64,000 nucleotides of DNA, taken from the NCBI GenBank assembly GCA_027943885.1, contig AP027078.1:434001-498000 (forward strand), in the 5' to 3' direction. Made by a program: the position numbers and the translations under genes. This DNA is from Candidatus Tyloplasma litorale (lineage in GTDB: Bacteria > Bacillota_I > Bacilli_A > Mycoplasmatales > Hepatoplasmataceae). The stretch's first letter is position 1. Every line of letters starts with the position of its first letter. A model generated the notes under the pieces. The model saw nothing but the letters and a program-made list of their open reading frames with translations, searched no databases and was not told where the DNA came from. Below, one piece after another: positions 14,415 to 47,380 of the stretch.

Positions 14415-14423
14415 ATTTTATCA
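14415..14423 (-). promoter_or_regulatory. Extended -10 of paralog C
   Basis: The minus strand reads TGATAAAAT, ending 9 nt before the ATG at 14405. The same block stands at the same distance before the genes starting at 17144 and 20298. Transcripts would begin at or within a few bases of the ATG, in keeping with the absence of a Shine-Dalgarno sequence. Confidence 0.5.
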
Positions 14424-14482
14424 TATTCAAAATATATTTTAGAAATTATCTTTTAATGCTTTTATAACTAATGAAGTTATTT

Positions 14483-14497
14483 AAAAAAAAAAAAAAA
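14483..14497. repeat. 15-A homopolymer upstream of paralog C
   Basis: Fifteen A residues on the plus strand, about 78 nt upstream of the start codon at 14405, the same length as the tract in the promoter of the gene starting at 6297. Here it does not lie between recognisable -35 and -10 boxes, so any role in switching is less clear. Confidence 0.7.
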
Positions 14498-14585
14498 CTC
14501 TTTTAAACTTAAATATAATATTTTTTTCTATATAGTATGTAAGTTATAAAAAGAATTTAATTTATTTATTTTTTAAGAAACTAAT
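14498..14585. repeat. Intergenic repeat of the surface-protein cluster, copy 2
   Basis: Nearly identical to 12352-12449 over about 85 bp, with the same core (aacttaaatataatattt, then ctatatagtatgtaagtt). It lies directly downstream of the stop codon of the gene ending at 14586. Confidence 0.75.
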
Positions 14586-17144: not shown

Positions 17145-17153
17145 AACAATTTA

Positions 17154-17162
17154 ATTTTATCA
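17154..17162 (-). promoter_or_regulatory. Extended -10 of paralog B
   Basis: TGATAAAAT on the minus strand, 9 nt before the ATG at 17144, in the same context as at 14415-14423 and 20308-20316. Confidence 0.5.
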
Positions 17163-17163
17163 T

Positions 17164-17310
17164 ATTCAAAATATAATCTTCTCCATCAGAAGTATTAAAA
17201 TCATCAGAAACATAATCTATATATGGATCTGGAGTATAATCTTTACTTTGATTTGTATTGTAAAAAAATTGAAACTTAAATTATTTTGTTTTGAGATATT
17301 AAAAATTGAA
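17164..17310 (-). pseudogene. 5' remnant of a D-type surface-protein gene
   Basis: The sequence from about 17164 to 17310 matches the N-terminal coding region of gene D (about 12120-12260), including the YTPDPYIDYVSDDFNTSDGE codons. It has lost most of the signal segment and its start codon and has no downstream body. It lies between the 5' end of paralog B and the intergenic repeat, so it marks the scar of a deleted or recombined paralog. Confidence 0.75.
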
Positions 17311-17332
17311 AATATTATATAAAAAAATATAA

Positions 17333-17424
17333 TAAATAACTCTAAACTTAAATATAATATTTTTTTCTATATAGTATGTAAGTTATAAAAAGAATTTAAT
17401 TTATTTACTTTTTAAAAAACTAAT
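17333..17424. repeat. Intergenic repeat of the surface-protein cluster, copy 3
   Basis: Third copy of the element at 12352-12449 and 14498-14585, ending at the stop codon of the gene at 17425-20298. It has lost a few bases at its left end (ctctaaactt instead of ctcttttaaactt). Confidence 0.75.
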
Positions 17425-23400: not shown

Positions 23401-23803
23401 AAGAAGAATTCGTGGACCAATCACAGGTAGTGAATTAATGGTTGCAAAAAAAGAATTTAAAGAAGATAAACACTTTAAAGATCAAAATGGAAATATTTGA
23501 GATAAATCTAAATATATAGGAATGAATCTTGATGATGGTTCTAAATTAAGTAGATATGATATTTTAAATAAGAAAATATCAACAACTAAAATCCTTTCTA
23601 TTAATGAACCATTTGAATTTGAAGGAAAAATTTATTTATATAAAGGTTTCTCAAACAATCAAATTATTCGTGGAAATATATTTTATAAATGAGCGTCAAA
23701 TGAAAAATATAAAAAAATTTATGGAGAATGACCCTATACAAATATAAATAAATATATGAATTTTAAAAAAATTAATATATCAAAAATGGGAAAAATACAA
23801 TAA
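20426..23803 (+). CDS. cas9: Cas9 RNA-guided DNA endonuclease, type II-A (1125 aa)
   Basis: Cas9 cuts DNA complementary to the crRNA guide, using RuvC and HNH nuclease sites and a tracrRNA:crRNA duplex. Code 4 is needed, since many Trp are UGA. RuvC-I is ILGLDIGVASLGW with D9. The arginine-rich bridge helix (KARNFRSQRRLVKRRLQR) is at about 53-70. RuvC-II IEAARDL has E570. The HNH motif EVDHIYPFS has D658 and H659, with Asn in KGNRTP. RuvC-III PYHHSVDAI has H827 and D830. All catalytic residues are present, so it should be active. About 870-1125 should hold the wedge and PAM-interacting parts. At 1125 aa it is compact beside SpCas9 (1368) and nearer SaCas9 (1053). It stands apart from cas1-cas2-csn2, with the array in between; csn2 in the locus assigns it to II-A. 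Confidence 0.97.
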
Positions 23804-23837: not shown

Positions 23838-26800
23838 GTTTTGGTTGATAGATAATTATGAGTGGATGAACACAATTGTTTTCCATATCAAACTAATTAT
23901 ACGTTTTGGTTGATAGATAATTATGAGTGGATGAACACGAATTTATGAAAGCGTATCAAGGTATGTTAAGTTTTGGTTGATAGATAATTATGAGTGGATG
24001 AACACAGACATTAAATTAATTTGCTCTTTTAATGCGTTTTGGTTGATAGATAATTATGAGTGGATGAACACGCAATTAGAAATACATCAAGAATTGACTA
24101 TGTTTTGGTTGATAGATAATTATGAGTGGATGAACACTTAGTGTTATCGAGGAAAAAGAATAATGGCGTTTTGGTTGATAGATAATTATGAGTGGATGAA
24201 CACGTGCCTTATATAGGAAGGACATAAATCATAGTTTTGGTTGATAGATAATTATGAGTGGATGAACACTAACTCTAAAAATTGTTCTTCAATTCTATCG
24301 TTTTGGTTGATAGATAATTATGAGTGGATGAACACTGAAAAAAGAAAGGAGAGATGTAAAATGGAGTTTTGGTTGATAGATAATTATGAGTGGATGAACA
24401 CATTCTTTAACAGATTTTTTAACAGATGATTGTTTTGGTTGATAGATAATTATGAGTGGATGAACACGGAATGATGTAGAGGAACAAGAATAGTTTTGTT
24501 TTGGTTGATAGATAATTATGAGTGGATGAACACTTTAGATTTTCTTAATCTTGTTAATATTCTGTTTTGGTTGATAGATAATTATGAGTGGATGAACACT
24601 ATTGTAAATGACGAAAGGGTTTGGATACTGTTTTGGTTGATAGATAATTATGAGTGGATGAACACTTACCAGCTGCTTAATTAAAATATAACATAGTTTT
24701 GGTTGATAGATAATTATGAGTGGATGAACACTACCAGCTGCTTAATTTAATATTACCATAAGTTTTGGTTGATAGATAATTATGAGTGGATGAACACAAA
24801 TACATCACCTTACCATGTTTTCATAAAGTTTTGGTTGATAGATAATTATGAGTGGATGAACACTTTAATTCTTTCCTCGCACATATCGTCTATGTTTTGG
24901 TTGATAGATAATTATGAGTGGATGAACACCAAATATTTCAAAATTTTTAAATTCTATTTGTTTTGGTTGATAGATAATTATGAGTGGATGAACACAAACA
25001 ATATCTTATGCAGCATACGAAAGGAGTTTTGGTTGATAGATAATTATGAGTGGATGAACACTATTATAATTACAAATCCTCCTTATAGTGTGTTTTGGTT
25101 GATAGATAATTATGAGTGGATGAACACAATTGATGACCACATCACTCATTTGATTGGGTTTTGGTTGATAGATAATTATGAGTGGATGAACACATAAAAA
25201 AAATAAAAAAAATTGGAACAAATGTTTTGGTTGATAGATAATTATGAGTGGATGAACACAGTGAACAAGTTTCTAACTGAGAAAGTTGAGTTTTGGTTGA
25301 TAGATAATTATGAGTGGATGAACACCCTCCTTTCTCATGTAGTTTTAAACTACTCGTTTTGGTTGATAGATAATTATGAGTGGATGAACACAAAAGCTGT
25401 TACATAAGGTTGATAAGCTACGTTTTGGTTGATAGATAATTATGAGTGGATGAACACTTGCAACAATAGACCAATTTGATGATGCTCGTTTTGGTTGATA
25501 GATAATTATGAGTGGATGAACACAATATTATTATATGCTACCAGAATTTTTACGTTTTGGTTGATAGATAATTATGAGTGGATGAACACAAGAATCTTTC
25601 AATTTCAGGAACATCATTAGTTTTGGTTGATAGATAATTATGAGTGGATGAACACTATTGTATATAACGAAAGGGTCGGGGTATTGTTTTGGTTGATAGA
25701 TAATTATGAGTGGATGAACACATTCGCCTTTAATTTCATAAATTCATTATAGTTTTGGTTGATAGATAATTATGAGTGGATGAACACAAAAATTTAAAAA
25801 AAAATAAAAAATGTATAGTTTTGGTTGATAGATAATTATGAGTGGATGAACACGAATTGATTTTTTTGAGACTCCTTATTTTCGTTTTGGTTGATAGATA
25901 ATTATGAGTGGATGAACACTAGGAATCGCTTCTCATCCGGCGTATTTTTGTTTTGGTTGATAGATAATTATGAGTGGATGAACACATTCAATTAAATTTA
26001 TCTTAAACATCTCTCGTTTTGGTTGATAGATAATTATGAGTGGATGAACACGGTTAGCGGCGATACAGGTAAAATTAGGATGTTTTGGTTGATAGATAAT
26101 TATGAGTGGATGAACACCATCACTTGTTGAGTAGTTTCTATATGTTCGTTTTGGTTGATAGATAATTATGAGTGGATGAACACTCAATTAATATATAAAG
26201 AAAATTTTAGATAGTTTTGGTTGATAGATAATTATGAGTGGATGAACACAAGTTATTGAGGTCAATGACCCTAATACTTGTTTTGGTTGATAGATAATTA
26301 TGAGTGGATGAACACTCAACTGGAGTATGATAAAGAGTTTTATAAGTTTTGGTTGATAGATAATTATGAGTGGATGAACACGAATCAAATTTAAATTCAA
26401 ATCTTAAATTTGTTTTGGTTGATAGATAATTATGAGTGGATGAACACAAAAATTAAATTAAATAAATAAAAATAAAAGTTTTGGTTGATAGATAATTATG
26501 AGTGGATGAACACATGACTAAAGAATTTATTTCTGATGCAGTTGTTTTGGTTGATAGATAATTATGAGTGGATGAACACATAAATAGTTATCACGATCTG
26601 CATCGTTCTGTTTTGGTTGATAGATAATTATGAGTGGATGAACACACTAAATATATACAATGTTATAAACAACAAGTTTTGGTTGATAGATAATTATGAG
26701 TGGATGAACACTTTAGTGATTCTATCACCCCCTTTTCTCGTGTTTTGGTTGATAGATAATTATGAGTGGATGAACACAAGGTTTTAAGAAATATAGATTC

Positions 26801-29800
26801 AAAGGGTGTTTTGGTTGATAGATAATTATGAGTGGATGAACACAAAATGAAAATAAAAGAAAATAGTTTTAACGTTTTGGTTGATAGATAATTATGAGTG
26901 GATGAACACGACAAACAAAAAAATAAAACTAACGTCTTTGTTTTGGTTGATAGATAATTATGAGTGGATGAACACGATGTCGAAGGTGAAGCAATTGATT
27001 TATCTGTTTTGGTTGATAGATAATTATGAGTGGATGAACACAGTCTCTACCTAATTTACGCAATCTGTTTCGTTTTGGTTGATAGATAATTATGAGTGGA
27101 TGAACACTTTTGTCCGCAAATAACGGAAAAGATTTTTGTTTTGGTTGATAGATAATTATGAGTGGATGAACACTTGTTCTTCGATACTTCACGCTTTGTA
27201 CGTGTTTTGGTTGATAGATAATTATGAGTGGATGAACACATTGATTCGAATATACAAATGGAGATTTCAGTTTTGGTTGATAGATAATTATGAGTGGATG
27301 AACACTTATCTTGTTCGCTTCACGCTAAATATGTGGTTTTGGTTGATAGATAATTATGAGTGGATGAACACAAACGCAACGGTATCTTATTCACAAATAA
27401 CGTTTTGGTTGATAGATAATTATGAGTGGATGAACACAATATCTCTTAATTTTAACACTCTTTCATTGTTTTGGTTGATAGATAATTATGAGTGGATGAA
27501 CACATTGAAGGGGGTGGAATGAGAAAACTAAACGTTTTGGTTGATAGATAATTATGAGTGGATGAACACTGGAAAGTTTCAATTTTCTGAAAAATATAAG
27601 TTTTGGTTGATAGATAATTATGAGTGGATGAACACAACCTATTATAGCAATTCAATAAACTTCATGTTTTGGTTGATAGATAATTATGAGTGGATGAACA
27701 CTGTAGATTGAAATGCTAACTCTGATGAATGGTTTTGGTTGATAGATAATTATGAGTGGATGAACACCACAAAAAAGGACCAGAAAGGTTTGGAAAAGTT
27801 TTGGTTGATAGATAATTATGAGTGGATGAACACACCGCCAAACTTTTTCTTAATTCTTTATACGTTTTGGTTGATAGATAATTATGAGTGGATGAACACT
27901 AAAAGCCTTAAATGGACCAGAAAAAAAAGGTTTTGGTTGATAGATAATTATGAGTGGATGAACACACTTTATTTTCATATTCCTCTGTTTTACCTGTTTT
28001 GGTTGATAGATAATTATGAGTGGATGAACACGATCAATTTTAAAAATTGGCCCAGCTATTTGTTTTGGTTGATAGATAATTATGAGTGGATGAACACAAT
28101 TAGGAATTCTTTTTCGATATCCTTCAAGTTTTGGTTGATAGATAATTATGAGTGGATGAACACTTTTGGTCGTGATTTATTAAATCTCTATTTGTTTTGG
28201 TTGATAGATAATTATGAGTGGATGAACACATTTAAATATTCCCAAAAATATAAATTCATGTTTTGGTTGATAGATAATTATGAGTGGATGAACACTAAAA
28301 CTAAGAGAATATTGAGATAATGAACGTTTTGGTTGATAGATAATTATGAGTGGATGAACACTAGAGTTTTAAGAACAAACTCTAGCTATTTGTTTTGGTT
28401 GATAGATAATTATGAGTGGATGAACACAGAGTTTCTTTTAATTGTGGATAACTCAATGTTTTGGTTGATAGATAATTATGAGTGGATGAACACATTTATA
28501 TTTTTGAGAATATCAAAATTTATGTTTTGGTTGATAGATAATTATGAGTGGATGAACACAAAATAAAAAAAATTAAGCAAGAGGGGTGAGTTTTGGTTGA
28601 TAGATAATTATGAGTGGATGAACACTAAAGGTACCGGCGTACAATCTCCGACTACGTTTTGGTTGATAGATAATTATGAGTGGATGAACACTATAAAAGC
28701 TAAACAAAACCAATTTTTCTTGTTTTGATAGATAATTATGAGTGGATGAACACTCTATTTTTGTAATTCTTTCGAAGTTATCAGTTTTGGTTGATAGATA
28801 ATTATGAGTGGATGAACACTTTTATTGAAATTAAAGACATGCAGTTAATGTTTTGGTTGATAGATAATTATGAGTGGATGAACACAATTTACCTTATAAT
28901 TCTGCAACGTCGGAAGTTTTGGTTGATAGATAATTATGAGTGGATGAACACTAAAGAATTTAGAAACTATGGTGGAGACCGGTTTTGGTTGATAGATAAT
29001 TATGAGTGGATGAACACCAGATACACTAAAGAATTGAATGAAATTGTGTTTTGGTTGATAGATAATTATGAGTGGATGAACACCCTTTCTTAAAAAGAAA
29101 GGGGAAAACAAAGGTTTTGGTTGATAGATAATTATGAGTGGATGAACACTTATTACTTCGAAGGTGCTCTAAATGTGCTGTTTTGGTTGATAGATAATTA
29201 TGAGTGGATGAACACTGAGATATCTGATTGAATTGTTTGCGATACGTTTTGGTTGATAGATAATTATGAGTGGATGAACACATCAAAACATTCGGTAGCA
29301 TTTGTTTGAGAGTTTTGGTTGATAGATAATTATGAGTGGATGAACACGCTCGAATGCTACTCACCTAATAAGAGACCGTTTTGGTTGATAGATAATTATG
29401 AGTGGATGAACACAAAGAATTTAGAAATTATGGCGGAGACCTGGTTTTGGTTGATAGATAATTATGAGTGGATGAACACAAATAATGAAACGGATGAAGT
29501 TGTTATTGGGTTTTGGTTGATAGATAATTATGAGTGGATGAACACGACTAAAGAATTTATTTCTGATTCTATTAAGTTTTGGTTGATAGATAATTATGAG
29601 TGGATGAACACTTGTTAAATCTTTTAATGTTGTTGAATGATGTTTTGGTTGATAGATAATTATGAGTGGATGAACACGTAAATTAATTATTGAAAGAGAA
29701 TTTGAATGTTTTGGTTGATAGATAATTATGAGTGGATGAACACTTAAATCTGAACCTGATATTGACCCAATTAGTTTTGGTTGATAGATAATTATGAGTG

Positions 29801-32800
29801 GATGAACACTTAGAATTAATAACAGAAACAACATTTAATGTTTTGGTTGATAGATAATTATGAGTGGATGAACACAAATGAATGAGTTTGTAGCATTACA
29901 GGCACGTTTTGGTTGATAGATAATTATGAGTGGATGAACACGCGGGCATACGCTACCACCCCATCAGGAGAGTTTTGGTTGATAGATAATTATGAGTGGA
30001 TGAACACTATTAATAATTCGTTAGAAAATAAATTTACGTTTTGGTTGATAGATAATTATGAGTGGATGAACACTGCTGTTAAAGTTTCTTTTAAACCCTC
30101 TTTGTTTTGGTTGATAGATAATTATGAGTGGATGAACACACGATGCGGATTCGTTTCTAAATTACGACTGTTTTGGTTGATAGATAATTATGAGTGGATG
30201 AACACATGGTTCAGCAAAATTTAAAGAAGCCTTTAGTTTTGGTTGATAGATAATTATGAGTGGATGAACACGTTAAGTTAAATTTATATGATGATTTAAC
30301 TGTTTTGGTTGATAGATAATTATGAGTGGATGAACACAAAATAAAGTAGATCAATTAGTTAAATATAGTTTTGGTTGATAGATAATTATGAGTGGATGAA
30401 CACTCATCTGTTAAAGAGTCAATTTTATCATTCGTTTTGGTTGATAGATAATTATGAGTGGATGAACACACTTTTTAACTTCTTAATTAAATTATACATG
30501 TTTTGGTTGATAGATAATTATGAGTGGATGAACACTATAAAAGCTAAACAAAACCAATTTTTCTTGTTTTGATAGATAATTATGAGTGGATGAACACTCA
30601 ATCCAGAAACAGGCAAACGTGGAATCTGTTTTGGTTGATAGATAATTATGAGTGGATGAACACAGATCAATTTAACTAGCAATTAATTAGATGGTTTTGG
30701 TTGATAGATAATTATGAGTGGATGAACACATTGTCGATGTTGCTAAAATTAAGCCAATTGTTTTGGTTGATAGATAATTATGAGTGGATGAACACATTTA
30801 AGAAAACCTACAAAAAGCACATACAGTTTTGGTTGATAGATAATTATGAGTGGATGAACACAAATAAAATCGAAATCACTGGTATAACAATGTTTTGGTT
30901 GATAGATAATTATGAGTGGATGAACACCAATCCCTTAACATCGACAACAGGAAGCGGGTTTTGGTTGATAGATAATTATGAGTGGATGAACACACTATTC
31001 AACAAGTGATGTTGAATTTACAGGTTTTGGTTGATAGATAATTATGAGTGGATGAACACAAAAAAATATTATTTCAGGGCACTTTTCAGGTTTTGGTTGA
31101 TAGATAATTATGAGTGGATGAACACTGATGTTAAAAGAATTTTTAAAGAAGATGTGTTTTGGTTGATAGATAATTATGAGTGGATGAACACAAAACTTGA
31201 AAAACAAATAACTGAAACTGTGTTTTGGTTGATAGATAATTATGAGTGGATGAACACTATGATGTTAATTGAATCATTACCAGAACAGTTTTGGTTGATA
31301 GATAATTATGAGTGGATGAACACGATATGAATTGTTTTTGTGATTTCTCTATGTTTTGGTTGATAGATAATTATGAGTGGATGAACACCGGCTGCGTGTC
31401 TTTTTAATATTATTCGTTGTTTTGGTTGATAGATAATTATGAGTGGATGAACACTTAAAAATCAAAAAAATTAAGCAAGGGGGTGTTTTGGTTGATAGAT
31501 AATTATGAGTGGATGAACACTGTTTTAAATTCTTGCCCTTTTTGAGCTGTGTTTTGGTTGATAGATAATTATGAGTGGATGAACACTCTATTTTCAAAAA
31601 TAGACACTTATAAAATGTTTTGGTTGATAGATAATTATGAGTGGATGAACACGGGATCAATAAAAAAATTGGCCTAGCTATTGTTTTGGTTGATAGATAA
31701 TTATGAGTGGATGAACACTGAAAATACAGGGCTATTTTTTGAGAAAATGTTTTGGTTGATAGATAATTATGAGTGGATGAACACAGATTGTGTAGTTTGA
31801 TTAGCACATTGAATGTTTTGGTTGATAGATAATTATGAGTGGATGAACACTAACAATTAATAATTTATATTTAACATTATGTTTTGGTTGATAGATAATT
31901 ATGAGTGGATGAACACTTATGAAAGTGATCTTTGTGAATACATAGAGTTTTGGTTGATAGATAATTATGAGTGGATGAACACCTTCTTTTAATTTATAAT
32001 TTTCACAAATTTGTTTTGGTTGATAGATAATTATGAGTGGATGAACACTAAATGATGATGGCGACATTCTAGCCGACTGTTTTGGTTGATAGATAATTAT
32101 GAGTGGATGAACACGTATTAAAATTAATTAACTTTTTAACAACCGTTTTGGTTGATAGATAATTATGAGTGGATGAACACAAGGCAATTTTTTGAGAATT
32201 AGAAAGTCCTGTTTTGGTTGATAGATAATTATGAGTGGATGAACACTTGGACCAGAAAAATAAGGCAGCTTAAGCTGTTTTGGTTGATAGATAATTATGA
32301 GTGGATGAACACTGTTCTCCAATGTTAGCAAATATTGGGTTAGTTTTGGTTGATAGATAATTATGAGTGGATGAACACAATTTTAAAATTAATAAATTAC
32401 TTAACAACGTTTTGGTTGATAGATAATTATGAGTGGATGAACACCTTTTTTAACCGATGCTGATATAGCTCAATGTTTTGGTTGATAGATAATTATGAGT
32501 GGATGAACACTAAAAAAATTCAAAATAATACAGTATTGTTGTTTTGGTTGATAGATAATTATGAGTGGATGAACACATATGCAGCAAAAATTAATTAAAC
32601 TATGATGTTTTGGTTGATAGATAATTATGAGTGGATGAACACCAAGAGTTAATTTTTTATTTGTGAAAATATGTTTTGGTTGATAGATAATTATGAGTGG
32701 ATGAACACCTCTGACTCTCCAGAGTTTAATTCTAAATAGTTTTGGTTGATAGATAATTATGAGTGGATGAACACCAATTTCGTTATTTATTGTTGCTGTT

Positions 32801-35800
32801 GTGTGTTTTGGTTGATAGATAATTATGAGTGGATGAACACAAAATTCTTAAAGGTTTTGGAGATATCAATGTTTTGGTTGATAGATAATTATGAGTGGAT
32901 GAACACTCCGTAGTCTTTTAGACGACCAGGCACCAAGTTTTGGTTGATAGATAATTATGAGTGGATGAACACAATATTCCGGTCTTTTATGATATGAAAT
33001 GGGTTTTGGTTGATAGATAATTATGAGTGGATGAACACTGATTGAACAGTTGATGAGTCATCTGCTAAGTTTTGGTTGATAGATAATTATGAGTGGATGA
33101 ACACAAACACTATGGAGAAATATTAGATTACCTAGTTTTGGTTGATAGATAATTATGAGTGGATGAACACTAGACAATTTCAAAAGTGTGGATTTTACTA
33201 GTTTTGGTTGATAGATAATTATGAGTGGATGAACACTGGAAATAGATTTAATAAAGTGATTGGTTAGTTTTGGTTGATAGATAATTATGAGTGGATGAAC
33301 ACAGAGTTTATGAAAGATTATATGAAAGTATAGTTTTGGTTGATAGATAATTATGAGTGGATGAACACCCTGGAGGTTTAAATTAATATGACTTCATGGT
33401 TTTGGTTGATAGATAATTATGAGTGGATGAACACAAAAGGACTTACTTCATTGATTGAAACTTAGTTTTGGTTGATAGATAATTATGAGTGGATGAACAC
33501 TTTTATATACATATATAAAATTATATTAAGTTTTGGTTGATAGATAATTATGAGTGGATGAACACGAAGGAGTCAAAGGTGCTTCTCAAGTTGGTGTTTT
33601 GGTTGATAGATAATTATGAGTGGATGAACACAACTACCAGAATTGTTAGTGAATAAGTTATGTTTTGGTTGATAGATAATTATGAGTGGATGAACACTCT
33701 CTCTTTTTAAAATTTGAATTTCATCCTGTTTTGGTTGATAGATAATTATGAGTGGATGAACACGATTTTGAAAGAATGTTAAATTTTGAGGTTGTTTTGG
33801 TTGATAGATAATTATGAGTGGATGAACACGCCGTCAATATCGTCTTTCATGTTGTAATTGTTTTGGTTGATAGATAATTATGAGTGGATGAACACTTATT
33901 AAAAAATGATTGATTTGAATCTAATGTTTTGGTTGATAGATAATTATGAGTGGATGAACACGAGTTTTTTTAAAAGAAGCAATTAATGAACGTTTTGGTT
34001 GATAGATAATTATGAGTGGATGAACACTGAAGTACCTCAAATACATACCAATGACTCGTTTTGGTTGATAGATAATTATGAGTGGATGAACACAATTAAT
34101 TTCATCAATGAAAAAAACAAAACGTTTTGGTTGATAGATAATTATGAGTGGATGAACACAGAAGTTGTACCAGGAGATAGTTTTAAAGTGTTTTGGTTGA
34201 TAGATAATTATGAGTGGATGAACACAAATGATACAGAATAGAGATATTCTAGGTTGTTTTGGTTGATAGATAATTATGAGTGGATGAACACACCAGGTGT
34301 AGTAATCATTGCTACGGTCATGTTTTGGTTGATAGATAATTATGAGTGGATGAACACGAATTAATTGGTGGATCTTATAATAGAGTTGTTTTGGTTGATA
34401 GATAATTATGAGTGGATGAACACATCTTTGATCCCTTTTCTTTTTCCAGCCATGTTTTGGTTGATAGATAATTATGAGTGGATGAACACATTATCTTAAG
34501 AATATTATTTTTAATAATAGTTTTGGTTGATAGATAATTATGAGTGGATGAACACAAAGTTTTTTTATTGTTATCTATATTTTTAGTTTTGGTTGATAGA
34601 TAATTATGAGTGGATGAACACCCACAAATTTAAAGACCAAGAAGGTCAAAAGTTTTGGTTGATAGATAATTATGAGTGGATGAACACAGAAGCAGTTAAT
34701 GCTATAGTACCATTTATGTTTTGGTTGATAGATAATTATGAGTGGATGAACACTTAATAATACTCTTTACCCCCTTTCTCGTTGTTTTGGTTGATAGATA
34801 ATTATGAGTGGATGAACACATTTTCCATCCCCATTTACATAAGCATTACGTTTTGGTTGATAGATAATTATGAGTGGATGAACACACGATGATTGAAAAT
34901 AATATTCACTATTTTGTTTTGGTTGATAGATAATTATGAGTGGATGAACACAAACAATTCATACTGGTAATACAACAATTGGTTTTGGTTGATAGATAAT
35001 TATGAGTGGATGAACACAGAATTAATTCAAAACTTCGGATATTTAGCGTTTTGGTTGATAGATAATTATGAGTGGATGAACACTTTTGAAAAGGTTATCT
35101 CACTCTCTTCCTTGTTTTGGTTGATAGATAATTATGAGTGGATGAACACTTGCACTACTCAATTCATCTACCCACAATAGTTTTGGTTGATAGATAATTA
35201 TGAGTGGATGAACACAATGTTAGGCAAAAAAATAAACGAGTATGTGTTTTGGTTGATAGATAATTATGAGTGGATGAACACCAAAGTTGATGTATATATC
35301 TCCGACATCATGTTTTGGTTGATAGATAATTATGAGTGGATGAACACATTTATTTTAATTGCAGTTATTAACGGAGTGTTTTGGTTGATAGATAATTATG
35401 AGTGGATGAACACCGAATATATTCGATATTATAAAGTTAATATGTTTTGGTTGATAGATAATTATGAGTGGATGAACACATTTTACAAAGAAATAACTTT
35501 TTATACAGAGTTTTGGTTGATAGATAATTATGAGTGGATGAACACTTTTTTACTCAACTTTCAAAATTAGAATTGGTTTTGGTTGATAGATAATTATGAG
35601 TGGATGAACACTCGAAAATTTTGGTTATATAGCAAAAAATTGTTTTGGTTGATAGATAATTATGAGTGGATGAACACTAAATAACTATATCCAGTAATTT
35701 CGTTTAGGTTTTGGTTGATAGATAATTATGAGTGGATGAACACCTAAATCTTCAGCATTTGAATAAATTTCTTGTTTTGGTTGATAGATAATTATGAGTG

Positions 35801-38800
35801 GATGAACACCATTTATATTATGATGTTTATGAATGATCCGTTTTGGTTGATAGATAATTATGAGTGGATGAACACTATGGCTAAATCATCTGATGTATAT
35901 CAATTGTTTTGGTTGATAGATAATTATGAGTGGATGAACACCAATTATTCGCGGACTATACAACTACATCGGTTTTGGTTGATAGATAATTATGAGTGGA
36001 TGAACACACAATTGATGACTATGGTGGTGGTGATGTGGTTTTGGTTGATAGATAATTATGAGTGGATGAACACACCGCAAAATTATTCCTAAATTCTTTA
36101 TACGTTTTGGTTGATAGATAATTATGAGTGGATGAACACTTCTGATCTTGGTGATAATTTATTATATACGTTTTGGTTGATAGATAATTATGAGTGGATG
36201 AACACAGATTATTTATTATCTAATTGAAAAGGCAGGTTTTGGTTGATAGATAATTATGAGTGGATGAACACATAACTTACTAAATATAATTCTATAACAT
36301 AGTTTTGGTTGATAGATAATTATGAGTGGATGAACACACCTTCTTTTTTTAAGAGAAAAAAAAGAAGGTTTTGGTTGATAGATAATTATGAGTGGATGAA
36401 CACAAAACCTTGAGAAGTACATGATTACATTATGTTTTGGTTGATAGATAATTATGAGTGGATGAACACAAACAATTCACACTGGCGAAACAACTATCGG
36501 TTTTGGTTGATAGATAATTATGAGTGAATGAACACTGTTAATAGCAAATTTAACGATATTGTTATGTTTTGGTTGATAGATAATTATGAGTGGATGAACA
36601 CAATTGTTAAAGAAAAAACAACTGAATATTTGTTTTGGTTGATAGATAATTATGAGTGGATGAACACCAAAGTTGATCAATATTTCGCCGGTATCTTGTT
36701 TTGGTTGATAGATAATTATGAGTGGATGAACACTGACCTTTAAAATCGAGTACAGCTTTTAATATTTTGGTTGATAGATAATTATGAGTGGATGAACACA
36801 CGGTGGTGTGTGAACGGATTCAACTAAAAGTTTTGGTTGATAGATAATTATGAGTGGATGAACACTAAAAATTATAATGTATGATATATGTTTTAGTTTT
36901 GGTTGATAGATAATTATGAGTGGATGAACACAGTAATAATTAAATCTAAATCATTAATATTGTTTTGGTTGATAGATAATTATGAGTGGATGAACACGGT
37001 ATTGCAGAGAAAAAAATTTTTAACAGGTTTTGGTTGATAGATAATTATGAGTGGATGAACACAAATACAATATTATTTTGAGCAATAACAAAGTTTTGGT
37101 TGATAGATAATTATGAGTGGATGAACACATTATTTTTATTTGCCATATATCTAAATTAGTTTTGGTTGATAGATAATTATGAGTGGATGAACACTTTTGT
37201 AAATAACAATATATGTGAAGATTAGTTTTGGTTGATAGATAATTATGAGTGGATGAACACTTTAAAAGAGGGACTCAAAAAACACATGTGTTTTGGTTGA
37301 TAGATAATTATGAGTGGATGAACACCATAAGCTTCATATATTTAAGCTGCAATTCGTTTTGGTTGATAGATAATTATGAGTGGATGAACACACCTTCTTT
37401 TTTTAAGAGAAAAAAAAGAAGGTTTTGGTTGATAGATAATTATGAGTGGATGAACACTCTTTAAAAAAATTTTAAATTATCAAACTCGTTTTGGTTGATA
37501 GATAATTATGAGTGGATGAACACATTAAACGGCAAAGTCTTTTTAAATGATTCGTTTTGGTTGATAGATAATTATGAGTGGATGAACACTAAAAGATAAA
37601 GAATATTTTTATCAGGAAGGTTTTGGTTGATAGATAATTATGAGTGGATGAACACAAAATCGTAAAATGAGAGTGAGTGAAGTAAGTTTTGGTTGATAGA
37701 TAATTATGAGTGGATGAACACTTTACCAAATATATTAATTAAATCATGGTTGTTTTGGTTGATAGATAATTATGAGTGGATGAACACGGAAAGGCTGGAG
37801 TTTTGGAAAAAAGGAAAGTTTTGGTTGATAGATAATTATGAGTGGATGAACACGGAAAGGCTGGAGTTTTGGAAAAAAGGAAAGTTTTGGTTGATAGATA
37901 ATTATGAGTGGATGAACACGGTTATCCTTCAATGACATAAATGGAGCATGTTTTGGTTGATAGATAATTATGAGTGGATGAACACTTTTTATAAATTTTT
38001 ATAAACTCGTTAAGAGTTTTGGTTGATAGATAATTATGAGTGGATGAACACTAAAAATAAATTTGAAAATTCAACTGTAATGTTTTGGTTGATAGATAAT
38101 TATGAGTGGATGAACACTTCAGAAAACTGATTTGAATTTAGATGAGTGTTTTGGTTGATAGATAATTATGAGTGGATGAACACAATATGGCCTTTGTAAA
38201 GGCTGTTAAAGCCGTTTTGGTTGATAGATAATTATGAGTGGATGAACACTAATTTCGATTTTATTCCCGTATGTTTTATGTTTTGGTTGATAGATAATTA
38301 TGAGTGGATGAACACAAAATGAATGAATTCGTAGCGCTGTAAACTGTTTTGGTTGATAGATAATTATGAGTGGATGAACACAATTGGACCAGAAAAAGGC
38401 AGCTTATTAGTGTTTTGGTTGATAGATAATTATGAGTGGATGAACACAAGGATTTCGTGGGGCAAAAAATGCCTATGGTTTTGGTTGATAGATAATTATG
38501 AGTGGATGAACACTTAACAGAAGTCTTAGACTATGTTGAAACAGTTTTGGTTGATAGATAATTATGAGTGGATGAACACTTATAAATTTCTTGAGCTTTA
38601 TAATTTTCAGTTTTGGTTGATAGATAATTATGAGTGGATGAACACGAAAGAGATTATTATCTCAAAACCAGAAGTGTTTTGGTTGATAGATAATTATGAG
38701 TGGATGAACACTTTCTTGCTCTTCTTTAATATTATATATAAGTTTTGGTTGATAGATAATTATGAGTGGATGAACACATAGCGTTTTGATCGCCGTTTAA

Positions 38801-40424
38801 TTTTAGAGTTTTGGTTGATAGATAATTATGAGTGGATGAACACAGATTTCGAGCATTTAAGAGAGAAAAAATAGTTTTGGTTGATAGATAATTATGAGTG
38901 GATGAACACTTCCTCTTTTCAATTTTCGTGAAGTGTTTCGTTTTGGTTGATAGATAATTATGAGTGGATGAACACAATCTAACCTAGAATCAGCAGACAC
39001 CACACGTTTTGGTTGATAGATAATTATGAGTGGATGAACACTAATGATTCTACTTTTGAAGCAATATCCATGTTTTGGTTGATAGATAATTATGAGTGGA
39101 TGAACACCTACATCTTCATATTCCATTAGTATGTTATGTTTTGGTTGATAGATAATTATGAGTGGATGAACACTAGATTTTTGAAGAAGTGAATTAAGAG
39201 AACGTTTTGGTTGATAGATAATTATGAGTGGATGAACACAAAAATCAGTTTTTATTTCTCCAGTTTCATGTTTTGGTTGATAGATAATTATGAGTGGATG
39301 AACACAGCAATATTAAATGGGGTACTCCATTAAGTGTTTTGGTTGATAGATAATTATGAGTGGATGAACACTTCTCACTTCATCAAGAAAGATATGCTGG
39401 TGTTTTGGTTGATAGATAATTATGAGTGGATGAACACTCATCTATTAACTCATCGATTTTATCACTTGTTTTGGTTGATAGATAATTATGAGTGGATGAA
39501 CACTCTTTTAGTTATTTATTTAATGGAGTGGTTGTTTTGGTTGATAGATAATTATGAGTGGATGAACACGGAGTGTTGGTTTTTATATTGAAAAAAATAG
39601 TTTTGGTTGATAGATAATTATGAGTGGATGAACACCCGCAATTGCTAAATTCGACGACGATTTTAGTTTTGGTTGATAGATAATTATGAGTGGATGAACA
39701 CAACTAAAACTCTCCTTAGATTTTCTCTATCGTTTTGGTTGATAGATAATTATGAGTGGATGAACACTGATTCAATTGATAACATAAGCGTCATCAAGTT
39801 TTGGTTGATAGATAATTATGAGTGGATGAACACAAAGACCAGATATCACTCAACTAATTTTTTGTTTTGGTTGATAGATAATTATGAGTGGATGAACACT
39901 TCAGAAAACTGATTTGAATTTAGATGAGTGTTTTGGTTGATAGATAATTATGAGTGGATGAACACGCTAATGACGAACAAACTTTAAAAACCATTGTTTT
40001 GGTTGATAGATAATTATGAGTGGATGAACACTTACCGCAAACGAACTTTCAAAAGACATTTGTTTTGGTTGATAGATAATTATGAGTGGATGAACACAGA
40101 TATAATTATATGGTAAAGGAAAGGACAGTTTTGGTTGATAGATAATTATGAGTGGATGAACACGTAATTTCATATACTTCAACTGCAACTCTAGTTTTGG
40201 TTGATAGATAATTATGAGTGGATGAACACAAACTAAAATTGATAAAGAAATTGATATTCGTTTTGGTTGATAGATAATTATGAGTGGATGAACACTAATA
40301 AATCGGGAATCCCAGGTTGTTGATAGTTTTGGTTGATAGATAATTATGAGTGGATGAACACTTATTGAGTAGTTAACGCTCAAAATCATTTGTTTTGGTT
40401 GATAGATAATTATGAGTGGATGAA
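23838..40424 (+). CRISPR. Type II-A CRISPR array, 252 repeats and 251 spacers
   Basis: The 36-bp repeat begins GTTTTGGTTGATAGAT and ends GGATGAACAC. By tracking repeat starts I count 251 spacers, nearly all 30 nt. Exceptions are 29 nt (23874-23902, 31324-31352, 33501-33529, 36998-37026, 37261-37289) and 31 nt (23939-23969). Repeats look identical except those at 28722 and 30566 (same 4-nt deletion of GGTT), 36500 (one G to A), 36764 (first G to A) and the terminal copy at 40392, which loses its last bases. A GTTTT start and a degenerate right end indicate transcription left to right, with the newest spacers next to cas9. Because 66 nt is a multiple of three and UGA is sense, three of the six frames stay open through the repeat; these are not genes. 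Confidence 0.99.
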
Positions 40425-40446
40425 TTTTTTAAAATAAATTCAACTT

Positions 40447-40480
40447 AAAAAGGCAATAAATTAATTTATTGCCTTTTTTT
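40447..40480 (+). terminator. Bidirectional terminator at the array end
   Basis: A palindrome (ggcaataaattaatttattgcc) flanked by A5 and T7 lies 22 nt after the last degenerate repeat and just before the stop codon of the convergent minus-strand gene. It can terminate the array transcript rightward and the helicase gene leftward. Confidence 0.8.
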
Positions 40481-40483: not shown

Positions 40484-42427
40484 TTATAAACCATTGGTTC
40501 TATTTTCTATCAATCTATTATTAATTCTCTTCTTTAATTTTTCAATTTCTATATTTTCTTCATAAAATAAATAATTTTTTAATAATTTATCTTGTTGTTT
40601 TGTTTCTAATAAATTTCAATCTTCTTCTGTTATATATTTTCCAATAAATCAATTTCTACTTGTTAGTATTTCAAATTTAATATTTTTCAAACCATATTTT
40701 CTAATAGTTTTAGAAACTTGTTGTTTTTTCTTCAGTTTTAATTTATCATCAAATGCATTGCTGACATGATAACAAAGTCTTTGGATTAAATTTTGAGATT
40801 GGCCAATATAAACTCTATTTTCATTATTATGATCCAATATTGTAATTTTATAAATTCCTGCTTGATTCATATAATATTTATATTCAAATTGATTAATTAA
40901 TTTAGTATTAATTAAATTTTCTTGAACTCATTTTTCATCTCTTCAAATATTATTAATGTAACTTTTATATATTTTTGTTTTGAATATACTTATTTCATTT
41001 AAATTATTAAATTTACTAAAATTACTTTCTCCCAAAGGTATAAATTTCTTATTTTTTGAAAAATAAAAACCAAGAGCTTCTTTATTTGTTTTGATTTTAT
41101 CAATTGAAATATTTTGAACATTTATTTTTAAAGCATCCTTGCCTCTAGAAAGAGCAACATAAGTTTGACCATCAGCAAAAATATTTTTACAATCAACATC
41201 AAAACTATCTAAAGTCATTCCTTGGGATTTGTGAATAGTTATTGCATATGCAGGTTTAATAGGTAATTGTTTAAATGAAAGTGCTATTTTATTAGGGTTA
41301 TTAAATTCATATAATGTATGTTTGTAAAAATTAAGTTTTTGTTCACCTACACCATCCCAATCAACAATTATCTTACTATAGTTAATATGCTTTATAGTTC
41401 CTAAAGATCCATTAACTAATTTATTATCAAAATCATTTTTTAAATGAATAACTCTTATTCCTTTTTTAATAATTAATCTCTCACTAAATGTTTCTTTAAA
41501 TGAATTAATTTCATTCTTATACAAATCTCAATTAGAAGAATAAATTTTAGATTTAAATAAAAAAGACTTATTATTATTGGATTCAATAAATTTATTGTTT
41601 ATTGAATCAACTTCATCTTTCTTAGCACGTAAATTTAATGATTCTGATTTACTTTCATTTTTTAAATTATGAAAATAATTTATATCATCTTTATTAGTAA
41701 TTCCAATTCTTAAACGATTTAAATGTCTTATAAAATCTTTATCTTTTTGTCTATAATGTTTATTTAAAGTTAAATAAACAAAATTCATACTTTCTCATAT
41801 TCTACTTTTAAAAATTCAAGGAGTAAAAAATCCATTTTTAGATATAGGTGGTAATTGAAGAAAATCACCAAACAAAATTAATTTTACACCACCAAAATAT
41901 TCATTATTATTTCTTGCATCTTGTAATACTTTATTAAGTAAATCAAATTGCATATAACTTAAAATTGAAATTTCATCTATTATCAAAACATCAATTTTTT
42001 GTAGTTTTAATTTTATTTCTTGTTTATATTTTTTAGAATTTAATATTTTATTTATGTCATCTAGACTCTTTTTATTTCCTATTCCTGAAAAAGAATGAAT
42101 AGTCATTCCATTCTCAAAATTAACAACAGAAATGCCAGTTGTTGAAGTTATTTGATATTCTAAATTTAAATATTTAGTAAATTCATTTATAAAAGTAGAT
42201 TTACCTGAACCAGCAGGACCTGAAAAAAAATAATAATTTGAATTATTTCCATCAAAAATAGTAATAAATTTTTTAAGATATTCATTTTTAGTTTCAAAAT
42301 CTTTTCTTTCATCTAATGTTTGAACTTTTGCTTTTTCAAAAAATGAAATTCGAATTATTAAAATAAAAAATATTGCTAATACTAAAGAAAATATTGCTAA
42401 TACTAAAAGAATTGAAAATAAAATCAT
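40484..42427 (-). CDS. Membrane-anchored PIF1/RecD-like helicase fused to GIY-YIG nuclease (647 aa)
   Basis: One code-4 frame; read with the standard code it breaks into four pieces at UGA-Trp codons. Residue numbers are from the upstream GTG at 42451; I prefer ATG 42427, since a TATAAT (42443-42438) sits between the two. A long hydrophobic stretch (MILFSILLVLAIFSLVLAIF) is followed by an SF1B helicase core: Walker A GPAGSGKST (78-86), Walker B DVLIIDE (154-160), GDFLQLPP (195-202), and a C-terminal AITIHKSQGMTLD ... YVALSRGKD module typical of PIF1/RecD. From about 528 comes a GIY-YIG domain: AGIYKI, then VYIGQSQNLIQRL, His in CYHV, FEIL and a basic tail. Function unknown. Helicase plus nuclease at the membrane suggests processing or restriction of incoming DNA. 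It lies between array and cas1, divergent from cas1 and convergent with the array. Confidence 0.85.
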
Positions 42428-42508
42428 ACTAAAAAAATTATATATTTTCACTTAAGTAAAAAAATTAAAAAATTATTAAATTATAATTTAAGTAAAAAAG
42501 GATGAAAA
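42428..42508. promoter_or_regulatory. Divergent promoter region of helicase gene and cas1
   Basis: A TATAAT at 42482-42487 lies 21 nt before the cas1 ATG, with an AAGGA ribosome site at about 42498. On the minus strand TATAAT (42443-42438) lies 10 nt before the helicase ATG at 42427. A direct repeat ttaagtaaaaaa occurs at 42452 and 42489. No -35 consensus is evident. Confidence 0.5.
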
Positions 42509-43459
42509 ATGGGATGAAAAACTATTCTAATAGAAAGTGAAAATAAATTTTCTATCAAAAATAATTTTTTAAAATTAACAAGTTACAATGATGAAAAAGA
42601 AAAAGAAAAAGAAATAAAAATATCATTAGAAGAAATAGATTTAATAATAATTCAAAATTATAAATCTTGAATTACAATTAGAACTTTAATTGAACTATCA
42701 AAAAAGAATATAACTTTTATAATTTGTGATCTTTCACATGATCCAATTTCAATGTTAATTCCATTAGCATTACACCATAAACCATTGCAAAATTTTAATT
42801 TACAAATTGAACAAAATTCAAGATCTAAAAATATTTTACATAAAGAAATAATTAAACAAAAAATAATAAATCAAAAATCAGTATTAATAGATATTGAAGC
42901 AAGTGAAGAAATAATCAATAAATTTTCCAATTTTGCAAATGATGTATTACAAGGTGATAAAACAAATAGAGAAGCAGTATCTGCAAAAATGTTTTTTAAA
43001 GAAATATATGGAAGTTCATTTGTAAGGTTTTATGATGATGGAATCAATTCTTTTATGAATTTTGGATATAAGATTTTAGCTTCTAAAATTTCTAATTGCT
43101 TAATAAAATATGGTTTACATCCAACTTTAGGTGTATTCCATAAAAATAAAAGTAATTATTTTAATTTATCTTATGATTTTATTGAACCCTTTAGACCATT
43201 AGTAGATTGATTAGCTAATTATCTTAAAATAGAACTAAAAGATACATTAACTATTTCATTAAAACTTAAAATATTAAGAATTTTAGATATGAAGGTACAA
43301 ATAAATGAGAAGATATATCTTGTAAAAAACGCTATAGATATTATGGTAAAAAGCTATATATCATTTTTACAAAATGAAAGAGAAGATCTTTCACTACCAA
43401 CTATTCATTTATCATTAATAAAGGAACAAATAGATAAATATGAATTCAAGGAGTTCTAA
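42509..43459 (+). CDS. cas1: Cas1 integrase of type II-A (316 aa)
   Basis: Cas1 forms the spacer-integration complex with Cas2. The ATG at 42509 gives MGWKTILIESENKFSIKNN, the usual N-terminus of type II Cas1, with a ribosome site (AAGGA) ahead. UGA-Trp codons occur throughout. Metal-binding residues are visible: Glu155 in TNREAVSAKMFF, His211 in GVFHKNKSNYF and Asp223/Glu226 in SYDFIEPFRP. The length is normal to slightly long. Its last 20 bases overlap the start of cas2, so cas1, cas2 and csn2 form one translationally coupled operon. This adaptation operon lies 18.7 kb from cas9, beyond the array and the helicase gene. Confidence 0.96.
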
Positions 43460-43778
43460 TTTTAGAGTTATGAGATTAATAATTTTATATGATTTACCGA
43501 CAGTTACTAAAAAAGATATTAAAATGGCTAGTAAATTTAGAAGTGAAATAATAAAAAAAGGATTTATAATGATGCAAGAATCTGTTTATATAAAACAATG
43601 TATAAATATTGATCACTTAAATAAAGAGTTAATTAAATTAAGTTTAATCCTTCCTAAAGAGGGTGATGTAAGAGCAATATCAATAACAGAAAAACAATAT
43701 TTTGATATGAAAATATTAAAAGGTGAAAAAAGCGTTGATGAAAAAATAACAGAGAAAGGTAGTTTAATTTTAATATAA
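43440..43778 (+). CDS. cas2: Cas2 (112 aa)
   Basis: Cas2 is the structural dimer at the centre of the Cas1-Cas2 integrase. The sequence shows the typical first strand MRLIILYDLPT with Asp18, then VYIKQ and DVRAISITEKQYFDM. A basic N-terminal extension (MNSRSSNFRV) precedes the usual start; Met11 is a possible alternative, but the ATG at 43440 has AAGGA-like spacing only within cas1. It overlaps cas1 by 20 bases and shares one base with the csn2 start (TAATG). Confidence 0.94.
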   Translation: MNSRSSNFRVMRLIILYDLPTVTKKDIKMASKFRSEIIKKGFIMMQESVYIKQCINIDHLNKELIKLSLILPKEGDVRAISITEKQYFDMKILKGEKSVDEKITEKGSLILI

Positions 43779-44827
43779 TGAAAATAATTTTTAGTAAAAA
43801 AGAAATATTATTTAAAAATAATATTGCATATTTGTTTTATAACAATCCAGAAGAAAAAGAAGATATTTTATCAGAATTAATACAATCAATTAATAAGGGA
43901 GATTTTATTTATGATGAAGAAGAATTTGATAAATTTGATTCATTAGAATATGTAGATTTAAGTAAAAATTTAGTAAAAGAATTTGCATTATTAAAAACTT
44001 CTGGAATTAGAAGAAAAATAGAAAATGATGTAAAGGATTTTTTCATTCAAAATGAAATCGAAAATGTATTTAATAAAGATATATTAAATGAACTTTTTAA
44101 AAAAATTGAAGCAAATTTTAATACTGAGGAATATAAAATATACTTTGAGAATAAAAATGATGATGCAACAAAATTAATTGATAACTTATTTAAAATAAAA
44201 ATCAATACAAAAGATGGAGAGGAAATAAATACAAAATTAAATCAATGAGTTTTATCTCCAATTTACTTAGAAATGATGTTAGATGATAATATTAAAAATA
44301 AAATAATTATTATTAATAATTATGATTCTAATGAAGATTATTCTAATGAATTTATCAATAAAAAAATAACTAAATTAATTAAAAATAATTTAGTCTTATT
44401 AATAACTAGAAAAAATAATTTTTTTAAAAATCAAAATTGTTCATCCAAAAATATAAATATAATAACTGGAGAAGATGAAATACAAAATATTAAAATGAGT
44501 AAGGAAATCTTGAAAGATATTTATTTACTAAATAATGATTTTTCAATTTATGATTATGATATTTTTAAATCAAATAGTGATTATTTAACTAGTGAAAATG
44601 AATTACAAAGAATGGAAAATATATTATTTTCAGCAATGAGTATTCATATGAAGGATTTAGTATTTAAAGAAAAAAGTTCCATAGATTTAACATATTTAAA
44701 TGATGAATTATATTATGGTGTTCTTTTATTTTTAGATCTTAATAGTGATTTATTTAAAAATCCCAAAATTACTTATAGTAGGGAAACAAAGAAAACAATA
44801 AAAGAAAAAATAAAATTAATAAAATAA
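43778..44827 (+). CDS. csn2: Csn2, long form (349 aa)
   Basis: Csn2 is a ring-forming, DNA-end-binding protein needed for spacer acquisition in type II-A. This one has 349 residues, like the long Csn2 type of Streptococcus thermophilus rather than the about 220-residue SpCsn2. The N-terminus MKIIFSKKEILFKNNIAYLF and the late hydrophobic strands (KIIIINNYDS, NNLVLLITRK) fit the degenerate P-loop-like fold; I see no clear Walker A. A UGA-Trp at 44246 joins its two halves. It starts within the cas2 stop codon and ends 2 nt from the stop of the convergent AAA_13 gene, with no clear terminator between them. Confidence 0.87.
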
Positions 44828-44829: not shown

Positions 44830-47169
44830 TTATTCTTCTATTCCAAAGGCAACTATTGTAGAAGATAAATAATTTCTATGTCTTATTCTTCTAAGTAGAT
44901 TTTCATCTTTCTTTTCATGTGCATTTTGTATTAAAAGTGAAAATCTTTTAGAAAAGTTAATTAAAATATCCTTTTCTCCACAATCTATTTCAAATAATTT
45001 TTCAAAATTAATCATAGATTTTTTTATTGGAAGAAAGTCATTTTCAGAATTAAAAATTTTATTTGAAATTTCTTTAATTCTTTCATTATCTTTTGATAAT
45101 ATTTTAGAATTTAATATTTTATGAATATTTTTACAAATGTTTTCCTCCTTATTTTTTGGATAATTTCCTCCTCATATTTCATTTTGGATAAGATTTTTAT
45201 AATTATTTCTAATACATTGCTTTTTTTCATTATGAGGAATATCATTTATTCTAACAATAATATAAAATATTGTTTTTAAACTTTTAATATACTCATCTTC
45301 AATTTTAAAATTTGAATCTATAATAAAATTAATAAAAATGCTTTCTAAAAAATTAGAAATATTTTCTTCATTAGGAAAAAATGAACGAAAATTAATTATT
45401 TCATCTACTCTTGTATTTCCACTATTTAATTTTCATTCTCTTATTTCAACATCATTTTTATCATCATTTTTCATATCACTAAATAATTTCTTTTTGTCAT
45501 TCTCATTATTTTTTAAAGAAGAAGTTAATTCATATAAAACATTCAAATTATGTGTAAATATAATAAATTTAGATTTAAGCTGCTTTTCCTTCTTATTTTC
45601 ATTTATTTTTTTACCTAATCCACCAATTCCTGTTGCTATGCCAAATTTATCTAAATTAAATTTAATATTTGATAATTTATTAGCTTTTGAATGGTCATTT
45701 GAATCAAAAGGATCATCTATTAAAACAATTAAATTCTCATTTTCTTCTAGTTTATTTATTTTTATTTCTAAATGAACAAAAAAATATGAAAGTGAAAAAA
45801 TTTTCCTTTCCCCTTCTGATAATTTTTTAATTTCTTTATTAATTTCTATTTCATAATTACCTGAAGAACCTTTGCCTTGTTTTGGTTTGGGAAGTAAAAT
45901 TTTAAAACTAGCATCAAAGTGATTCAAAAAATAATTAAATCTTTTTTCTATTTTTTCACTTATTTCAACTAAATTATCTTCTCTTTGGATTTTTAATTTA
46001 TTTATTTCGCATTCAATTTTTTTATCTTCTTTAAAATTTCTATTTATTTCATAACTTTCTTTAAAAAAATTTATTTTATTTTTTTCAAATTCATTTTTTA
46101 TAATCTTTTTTTCTTTCTCAAAATCAATTCTTTTTTCTTCTATATTTAAAAATGGTAAATTTTCTAAAATTGAATAAATATTTATATTAATTTTTTTAAA
46201 ATTATCATTATTTTCATTAATTTTTTTAACTACATCACTAAATTTCTCAAATAATTCATTTACTTCTTTAATTTTTTTAATTTCTTTATAAATTCCTCTA
46301 TTAAAAATTTCCTTAATTTTTTTTTTAATTTTTTTTACATTTAAATTTAAAGAAGTTATTTTTTCATTTACTTTATTTGAATATTCCTTCAAATATTCCT
46401 CTATATCTTTTTGTTTAATTTCTATCTTTCGTATAAAAAGAAAATCTTTTTTTATTTTCATAGCCTCTTTATGAAGATTTATTATTATTGTTTCTTCATT
46501 TTTTTGTTTATTAAAATTTTCATTAATAAAATCAATAATTTTATTAGTATTATTAATTAAAAAATAAACTTTTTCACACTCTGCAAAAAAATCATTAATT
46601 ATTTCATTATTTTTTATTTTTTCAATTGAAGAAATTATTTTTTTTTCAATTTCTTTACTTGAGACTATAAAATCTTTTATTTGATCGTCTTTAAAACTTT
46701 TTTTCAATTCATTAAAAGTAGGTTCTTTAAAATCAAAATATTTTTGATTTTGTTTTATTGTTTCAATATATCCTTTTTTTATAAAATCATTTATTTTATT
46801 TTTGATTTCATCTAAACATTTTTGATTTTTATCTATTTTATCTGAAATATCCTTTATATTTTCTGCATAAAATAATTTGAATGTGCTATTTTTAATAGGA
46901 TTACTAATGTTATTAATAATTTCTGAATTTTCTTTATCAATAGATGAAATAAAAATATTATTAACTATAAAATCTTGATTATAAATTAATATATTTTCTA
47001 AATTATTTTCTTTTTTTATTTCATTTATTTTTCTTGTATATGTTGTTTTTCCAACACCATTTTTTGCAAAAACATAAGTTATAGGTTTTTTATCCATATT
47101 TTGAACATTTAATTTAATGTGTTCTTCTATAGATATATTTAATTTTTCTTTTAAATCTTCTATTGTCAT
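44830..47169 (-). CDS. AAA_13 (PrrC/RloC-like) ABC-type ATPase (779 aa)
   Basis: One code-4 frame from ATG 47169 to TAA 44830; UGA-Trp codons break it in standard-code reading. Walker A is FAKNGVGKTT (34-43), followed by IYNQDFIVNNIF, typical of the AAA_13 group. A long charged coiled coil spans about 85-430. The ABC signature is LSEGERKIFSLSYF (450-463), Walker B LIVLIDDPFDS (about 480-490) and the switch histidine is in FTHN (540). About 200 residues follow that I cannot assign. In PrrC and RloC this place carries an anticodon-nuclease domain; I do not see its R-x3-E...H signature with confidence. Relatives act in phage defence, so an abortive-infection role is a reasonable inference. It lies directly downstream of the tracrRNA terminator and convergent with csn2. 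Confidence 0.75.
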
Positions 47170-47187: not shown

Positions 47188-47380
47188 AAAAAAAACAAAT
47201 ACTCATTAGAGTATTTGTTTATACAGGAGGATTAATTGGTGGGGTTACCTGTGTACCCCTCAGCATAAAGCTTTATCTTGATTGATAGATAATTATGAAT
47301 GGATAAACTTATATTTAATTGTTTGTTTTGGTTGATAGACAATTATGAGTAAGTAAACTTTTCATTCAAATAACCAAGTT
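47188..47380 (-). ncRNA. tracrRNA with two tandem anti-repeats
   Basis: Minus strand. Two anti-repeats pair with the CRISPR repeat: distal 47325-47360 and proximal 47275-47310, 14 nt apart. The proximal copy can pair with repeat positions 1-34 without a mismatch; all five base differences (positions 1, 3, 7, 25, 31) give G-U wobbles. The distal copy pairs at 1-28 (wobbles at 16, 27, 28), with one mismatch at 29. After the proximal copy come a short palindrome (ATAAAGCTTTAT), a stem-loop GGGGT-loop-ACCCC (about 47239-47257) and a strong terminator. The 5' end is inferred from the -10 box at 47387. Expected length is about 190 nt before processing. It lies 23 kb from cas9 and is convergent with csn2 across the AAA_13 gene. 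Confidence 0.88.
47189..47220 (-). terminator. tracrRNA terminator
   Basis: The minus strand reads AAACAAATACTC, loop TAAT, GAGTATTTGTTT, then a U-run. The 12-bp perfect stem marks the tracrRNA 3' end at about 47188. Confidence 0.9.

Follow-up and report, generated by a model that had tools for sequence, protein, structure and literature searches.

SNIPE (PD-lambda-1) is a one-gene membrane nuclease that carries an N-terminal transmembrane segment with its N terminus outside, a DUF4041 middle that binds DNA and the phage tape-measure protein, and a GIY-YIG domain at the C terminus. The enzyme cleaves the DNA of phages as it is being injected and, released from its tether, becomes toxic to the host (PMC13190303). 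A helicase joined to a GIY-YIG domain has been described in the Tetrahymena Tlr1 element (pPolB-SF1H-GIY-YIG), in which a PIF1-like SF1 helicase is followed by a C-terminal GIY-YIG (PMC1564403, PMC12721341), and GIY-YIG domains are known to be mobile and to fuse freely (PMC1564403). Here we describe a gene predicted to combine a membrane anchor, a PIF1-type helicase and a GIY-YIG module within a bacterial CRISPR locus, an architecture for which we found no described protein within the sequence searches made and the open-access literature.

The DNA analysed (the window, 64,000 nucleotides) comprises bases 434001-498000 of AP027078.1 from Ca. Tyloplasma litorale Fukuoka2020, a member of the Hepatoplasmataceae using code 4, whose genome is a single contig of 615,622 bp and which is a gut symbiont of beach isopods. 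The fusion gene lies at 40484..42451 on the minus strand and encodes 655 aa from a GTG start, with TAA directly 5′ of the start codon, or 647 aa from an ATG at codon 9. Read with code 4, the frame contains seven UGA-Trp codons, no stop and no frame change, in agreement with the earlier note's claim that the pieces visible in the standard code form one protein. A 655-codon frame is expected by chance at the local base composition at only about 1e-24 per start. GC3 stays within 4-9% from the N-terminal part through the helicase to the C-terminal part, so all three look coding. A frame artefact was dropped since the coding signal runs through the whole frame, a pseudogene was dropped since the frame has no stop, and a start downstream of the anchor was dropped since inspection by eye revealed no in-frame start in the stretch from the codon-9 ATG to the helicase. 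Judged by its position between BDU67745 (Cas9) and BDU67747 (Cas1), the gene is probably BDU67746.1 of AP027078.1. The published account of this genome gives Cas9 (BDU67745), Cas1 (BDU67747), Cas2 and Csn2 (BDU67749), regards the system as a likely intact II-A, and does not include BDU67746 in its list of defence genes (PMC10928387).

The N-terminal part consists of a single transmembrane anchor at residues about 9-36 (42344..42427, minus strand), with a KD19 maximum of 3.42, a value reached in 2 of the 659 open sequences that shuffling of these bases gave. AlphaFold2 predicted a confident helix from residue 2, with pLDDT about 90 at residues 11-30, and the proposed hydrophobic anchor therefore stands. 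Positive charge is more abundant after the anchor than before it; under the positive-inside rule the flank richer in positive charge marks the cytoplasmic side, so the rest of the protein is predicted to be cytoplasmic. An ATP-driven enzyme requires such a location, and the predicted topology would place the enzyme domains on the cytoplasmic side.

The middle of the protein, residues about 57-468 (41048..42283, minus strand), is by its motifs and predicted fold a PIF1-type SF1B helicase. It matches Pfam PF05970 (PIF1) at 8e-29 and PDB PIF1 sequences at 1.6e-45, and its predicted fold matches Pif1 structures at E 4e-36 (Foldseek). SF1B motifs I-VI are all present (I, G78-T86; Ia, 102; II, D159-E160; III, 195-202; IV, R234-Q235; V, H407-T413; VI, Y431-R436), as had been claimed, and positions that are invariant among 34 viral relatives are retained. 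PIF1 family members are 5′-3′ translocases and unwindases, and ATP-dependent unwinding in the 5′-3′ direction is predicted for this protein by family.

Assignment of the C-terminal module, residues 503-655 (40487..40945, minus strand), is real but modest. The module contains WRDEKWVQE (503-511), GIY (532-534), YIG (548-550), R558 and H562. In isolation it scored 22.1 bits against the Pfam GIY-YIG family, whose cut-off is 22.6, with the first half of the domain alone covered; the second half, where the catalytic Glu resides in the third helix, was aligned by no profile. Further matches were to PHROG 5123 (GIY-YIG homing endonuclease, 2.6e-4), to another GIY-YIG protein by hhalign (3.9e-5 across 46 columns) and, over residues 510-565, to the candidate single-gene defence family PDC-S14 of PADLOC (1.3e-6). 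The AlphaFold2 model of the module, built from 2 sequences, reached a pLDDT of 41 and gave no significant fold match, a lack of confidence attributable to too few relatives. Thus GIY, YIG and R558 are present in the GIY-YIG domain reported by the earlier note, and the domain is a weaker match than it had implied; the nuclease activity of the module is putative.

Only one clear relative of the C-terminal module was detected (E 3e-7), a 298-aa protein in a vent-shrimp Hepatoplasmataceae MAG (G006; F_Rainbow_MAG_00001, contig CAMZOE010000005, 6336-7232 of locus L049). It resembles the fusion protein in having an N-terminal anchor and a homologous C-terminal module including WRDxKWVxE (here WRDKKWV ahead of GIY-YIG), and differs in that a Lys-rich linker replaces the helicase and in that its contig is not the one holding the cas genes of that MAG. 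Anchor and nuclease module therefore go together without a helicase in this protein, which we regard, from sequence, as the best clue to the function of the fusion. An exact-motif scan of genome contigs returned the vent-shrimp MAG plus one unrelated Bacteroidales match, and no relatives of the module were found in phages or viral contigs. Weak GIY-YIG matches in other Mollicutes were rejected as not belonging to this module, their frames being either short (about 100-180 aa) or about 400-600 aa, the latter probably UvrC. A different GIY-YIG gene (266 aa; L048:16859-17659, plus strand) is located at the far side of the CRISPR array of the vent-shrimp MAG, and a similar 263-aa gene (L054:7057-7848, minus strand) is located elsewhere in genome G007.

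Examined by eye, the gene for the 298-aa protein sits at a housekeeping locus, after mnmG/rsmG-like genes and before a ParA-like gene. This setting speaks for a membrane-linked role in processing DNA that the cell takes up, for nucleotide scavenging or competence, as do the reliance of Mollicutes on imported nucleotides and the presence of ComEC in other Hepatoplasmataceae (PMC9636832). We consider such a role very improbable for the fusion protein, however, since its predicted cytoplasmic placement means that it would act only after DNA uptake, its presence is patchy, and no com genes lie beside it.

Relatives of the helicase core are far more widespread than those of the C-terminal module. 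Chromosomal relatives were found in other Hepatoplasmataceae and in 2 genomes from another family of the order, and, where the frame is complete, they measure about 400-430 aa and have neither anchor nor nuclease. The genome also encodes a paralogue (32%), likewise without GIY-YIG; a HAD-family gene adjoins the paralogue and the relatives in 3 genomes of the family, away from cas, and in H. crinochetorum the helicase (282 kb) and cas1 (307 kb) are apart. In the tree, the fusion helicase groups with the stand-alone chromosomal clade of H. crinochetorum and G008 (98/84) and not with the paralogue clade, which indicates that the core came from within the family. The fusion probably arose within Hepatoplasmataceae, when a PIF1 helicase of the resident type became joined to a GIY-YIG module with a membrane anchor. 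Separately, PIF1 proteins from Bacilli (L050-L052), about 520-540 aa long, appear by eye to carry a viroplasmin-like N-terminal domain before the helicase.

These relationships bear on two alternatives. One is that the protein is a replication/repair or recombination helicase-nuclease of the Dda/PIF1 kind that stands next to cas genes by chance, as membership of its core in that family and its sister position to stand-alone chromosomal helicases would allow. We judge this unlikely: the genome already has its second PIF1 without GIY-YIG, beside a HAD gene as in relatives, neither a membrane anchor nor a nuclease would be expected in such a role, and sister species lack the gene. The other is that a mobile-element gene or phage remnant landed in the locus, with the GIY-YIG acting as a homing nuclease. 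The earlier note had named homologues found mostly on mobile elements without cas genes as the sign of a passing mobile gene, and this was found in part, for the helicase core alone, which has relatives encoded by 572 records of phages, 72 of plasmids and many viral contigs; the mobility of GIY-YIG domains would also fit. Yet none of the 73 readable helicase frames in the 80 viral loci kept has a GIY-YIG or an anchor, searches of viral contigs and phages gave no relative of the C-terminal module, neither an integrase or other element gene nor repeats were seen in the adjoining frames read, and the nearest helicases are chromosomal and of the same family, which together make a mobile origin decidedly unlikely.

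The gene is embedded in a complete type II-A locus. The order is cas9 (20426..23803, plus strand, 1125 aa, 4e-115), the CRISPR array (23838..40427, plus strand), the fusion gene on the opposite strand, cas1 (type II; 42509..43459, plus strand, 2e-72), cas2 (43440..43778, plus strand, 3e-18), csn2 (43778..44827, plus strand, 349 aa), an AAA_13 (PrrC/RloC-like) ATPase gene (44830..47169, minus strand, 779 aa) and a probable tracrRNA (47190..47350, minus strand). Searches with cas, defence and Pfam profiles gave no match for csn2, which was assigned by position and by the HHpred result reported for BDU67749 (PMC10928387). The tracrRNA was recognized by eye from repeat-complementary segments at about 47346 and about 47296 (21/22 and 19/22 matches) followed by hairpins and a terminator, and gave no Rfam match. 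It lies far from cas9, beyond csn2 and the ATPase gene. Because they fall within the bounds set by cas9 and the tracrRNA, both the fusion gene and the AAA_13 gene are inside the CRISPR locus.

The array consists of 252 repeats of 36 bp and 251 spacers. It is very long for a 616-kb genome, and 4 of its spacers are duplicated. The array had no match among phage records, and the spacers gave 3 partial 20-nt matches only to the rest of the window and the retrieved loci, among the best 40 inspected. Its last repeat, beside the fusion gene, is degenerate, marking that side as the trailer end; the leader end would then be at cas9, with the fusion gene 16 kb away. Array and fusion gene are convergent, and a terminator-like hairpin between their ends (40447..40478), with A/T tracts on both sides, is probably common to both. 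On its other side the fusion gene is divergent from cas1, the starts being 57 bp (GTG) or 81 bp (ATG) apart, and the position between array and cas1 agrees with that first noted, where the spacing had been put at about 80 bp. The intergenic region holds a promoter-like site for the fusion gene (TTTTCA-17-TATAAT, 42480..42508, minus strand), which is a consensus match only, the regional total of such sites being the same as in shuffles. The AAA_13 gene was absent from 58 relatives and is, like the fusion, unique to this genome among the relatives, so that the locus reads as a small cluster of lineage-specific defence genes. A weak match of the AAA_13 gene to PADLOC PDC-S06 was also seen. Beside cas9 on the minus strand (8130-20298) is a run of large repeat-rich genes, probably for surface proteins, with a signal-like N-terminus and a C-terminal hydrophobic segment.

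Such a setting raises a third alternative, that of a CRISPR accessory in which the helicase-nuclease makes fragments for Cas1-Cas2-Csn2, as a feeder of the RecBCD/AddAB kind co-regulated from the cas1 intergenic region. Its place between array and cas1, the divergent spacing of 57-81 bp with a promoter-like site, the enclosure of both extra genes within the locus limits, and the complete Cas set (PMC10928387) and 251 spacers, suggestive of an adaptation module that was once active, would accord with this. The distribution of the gene argues otherwise. A cas1 scoring above the cut-off of its family is present in 14 of the 59 nearest genomes; one of these has the fusion, and the remaining 13 relatives with a clear cas1 do not. 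Inspection of the cas1 locus in each of five sister genomes (G002, G005, G006, G007 and G009) showed no copy there. Presence of the helicase showed no association with cas1, either across the 59 genomes (Fisher p 0.14) or within the family (p 0.57). No further fusion was found in any genome searched (1,193 look-ups of genomes from one phylum, in overlapping sets and thus fewer distinct genomes), nor in phages, plasmids or viral contigs, and scans for close relatives with the whole protein returned nothing from genome contigs or viral contigs. With a single genome, bare sister loci and a helicase independent of cas1, the link to CRISPR is one of location in one genome and not of recurrent linkage; the gene is also at the trailer and not the leader end of the array. 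A CRISPR-accessory role, and with it the earlier note's suggestion of fragments made for Cas1-Cas2, is thus not supported by these comparisons and seems quite improbable.

The explanation we favour, tentatively and at somewhat less than even likelihood, is that of a single-gene, membrane-tethered helicase-nuclease acting on entering DNA and guarding against it, since the protein has the same order of parts as SNIPE with a DNA-binding motor in the middle. Within the CRISPR locus it would probably be a neighbouring, independent defence gene. The surroundings of CRISPR-Cas and the AAA_13 ATPase gene favour a defensive role; against it stand the occurrence of the fusion in one genome only, the GIY-YIG score just under the Pfam cut-off, and the fact that PIF1 helicases also act in replication and repair, and we know of no phage of this host. 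In the proposed mechanism the N-terminal helix would anchor the protein with its enzyme domains on the cytoplasmic side, the PIF1 core would bind DNA emerging at the membrane and unwind or track along it, and the GIY-YIG domain would cut the DNA so handled. Tethering would keep the nuclease away from the host chromosome, as demonstrated for SNIPE (PMC13190303). The earlier proposal of degradation of incoming DNA at the membrane accordingly has a tested precedent in SNIPE (PMC13190303), while the nuclease activity, DNA target and defence role of the fusion protein itself are putative. We see only a slim chance that it is in addition a motor-fed entry barrier whose fragments supply Cas1-Cas2-Csn2 for spacer capture, coupling destruction at entry to memory.

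Only recently, with SNIPE, did it become established that nucleases anchored in the membrane can catch DNA as it enters. The fusion protein shares with SNIPE a single N-terminal transmembrane segment, a DNA-binding middle, a C-terminal GIY-YIG, a predicted N-out/C-in topology and its one-gene format, but has a PIF1 helicase instead of DUF4041, and its nuclease sequence matches no SNIPE profile. The 25 Pfam families listed at E<=1 for the protein do not include DUF4041, so the comparison is an analogy, and on these matches the protein is SNIPE-like and not a SNIPE member. If the favoured reading is true, the strategy recurs with different middle domains, in this case a DNA motor that is part of the protein, encoded within the CRISPR locus of a minimal genome of 616 kb; the protein would also make a compact one-protein system in which to ask how the host chromosome is protected by tethering and whether entry-cut DNA is used for spacer capture. 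With the PIF1/Dda SF1B helicases, such as Bacteroides Pif1 (5fhd) and human PIF1 (6hpq), the protein shares all core motifs and the fold, and differs in carrying a membrane anchor N-terminal to the core and a GIY-YIG extension C-terminal to it. Tlr1, compared by description, differs in being a eukaryotic Polinton-like element with a polymerase part and no anchor reported. As Tlr1 provides precedent for pairing a helicase with GIY-YIG, the novelty lies not in the pairing but in the membrane-anchored combination in a bacterium.
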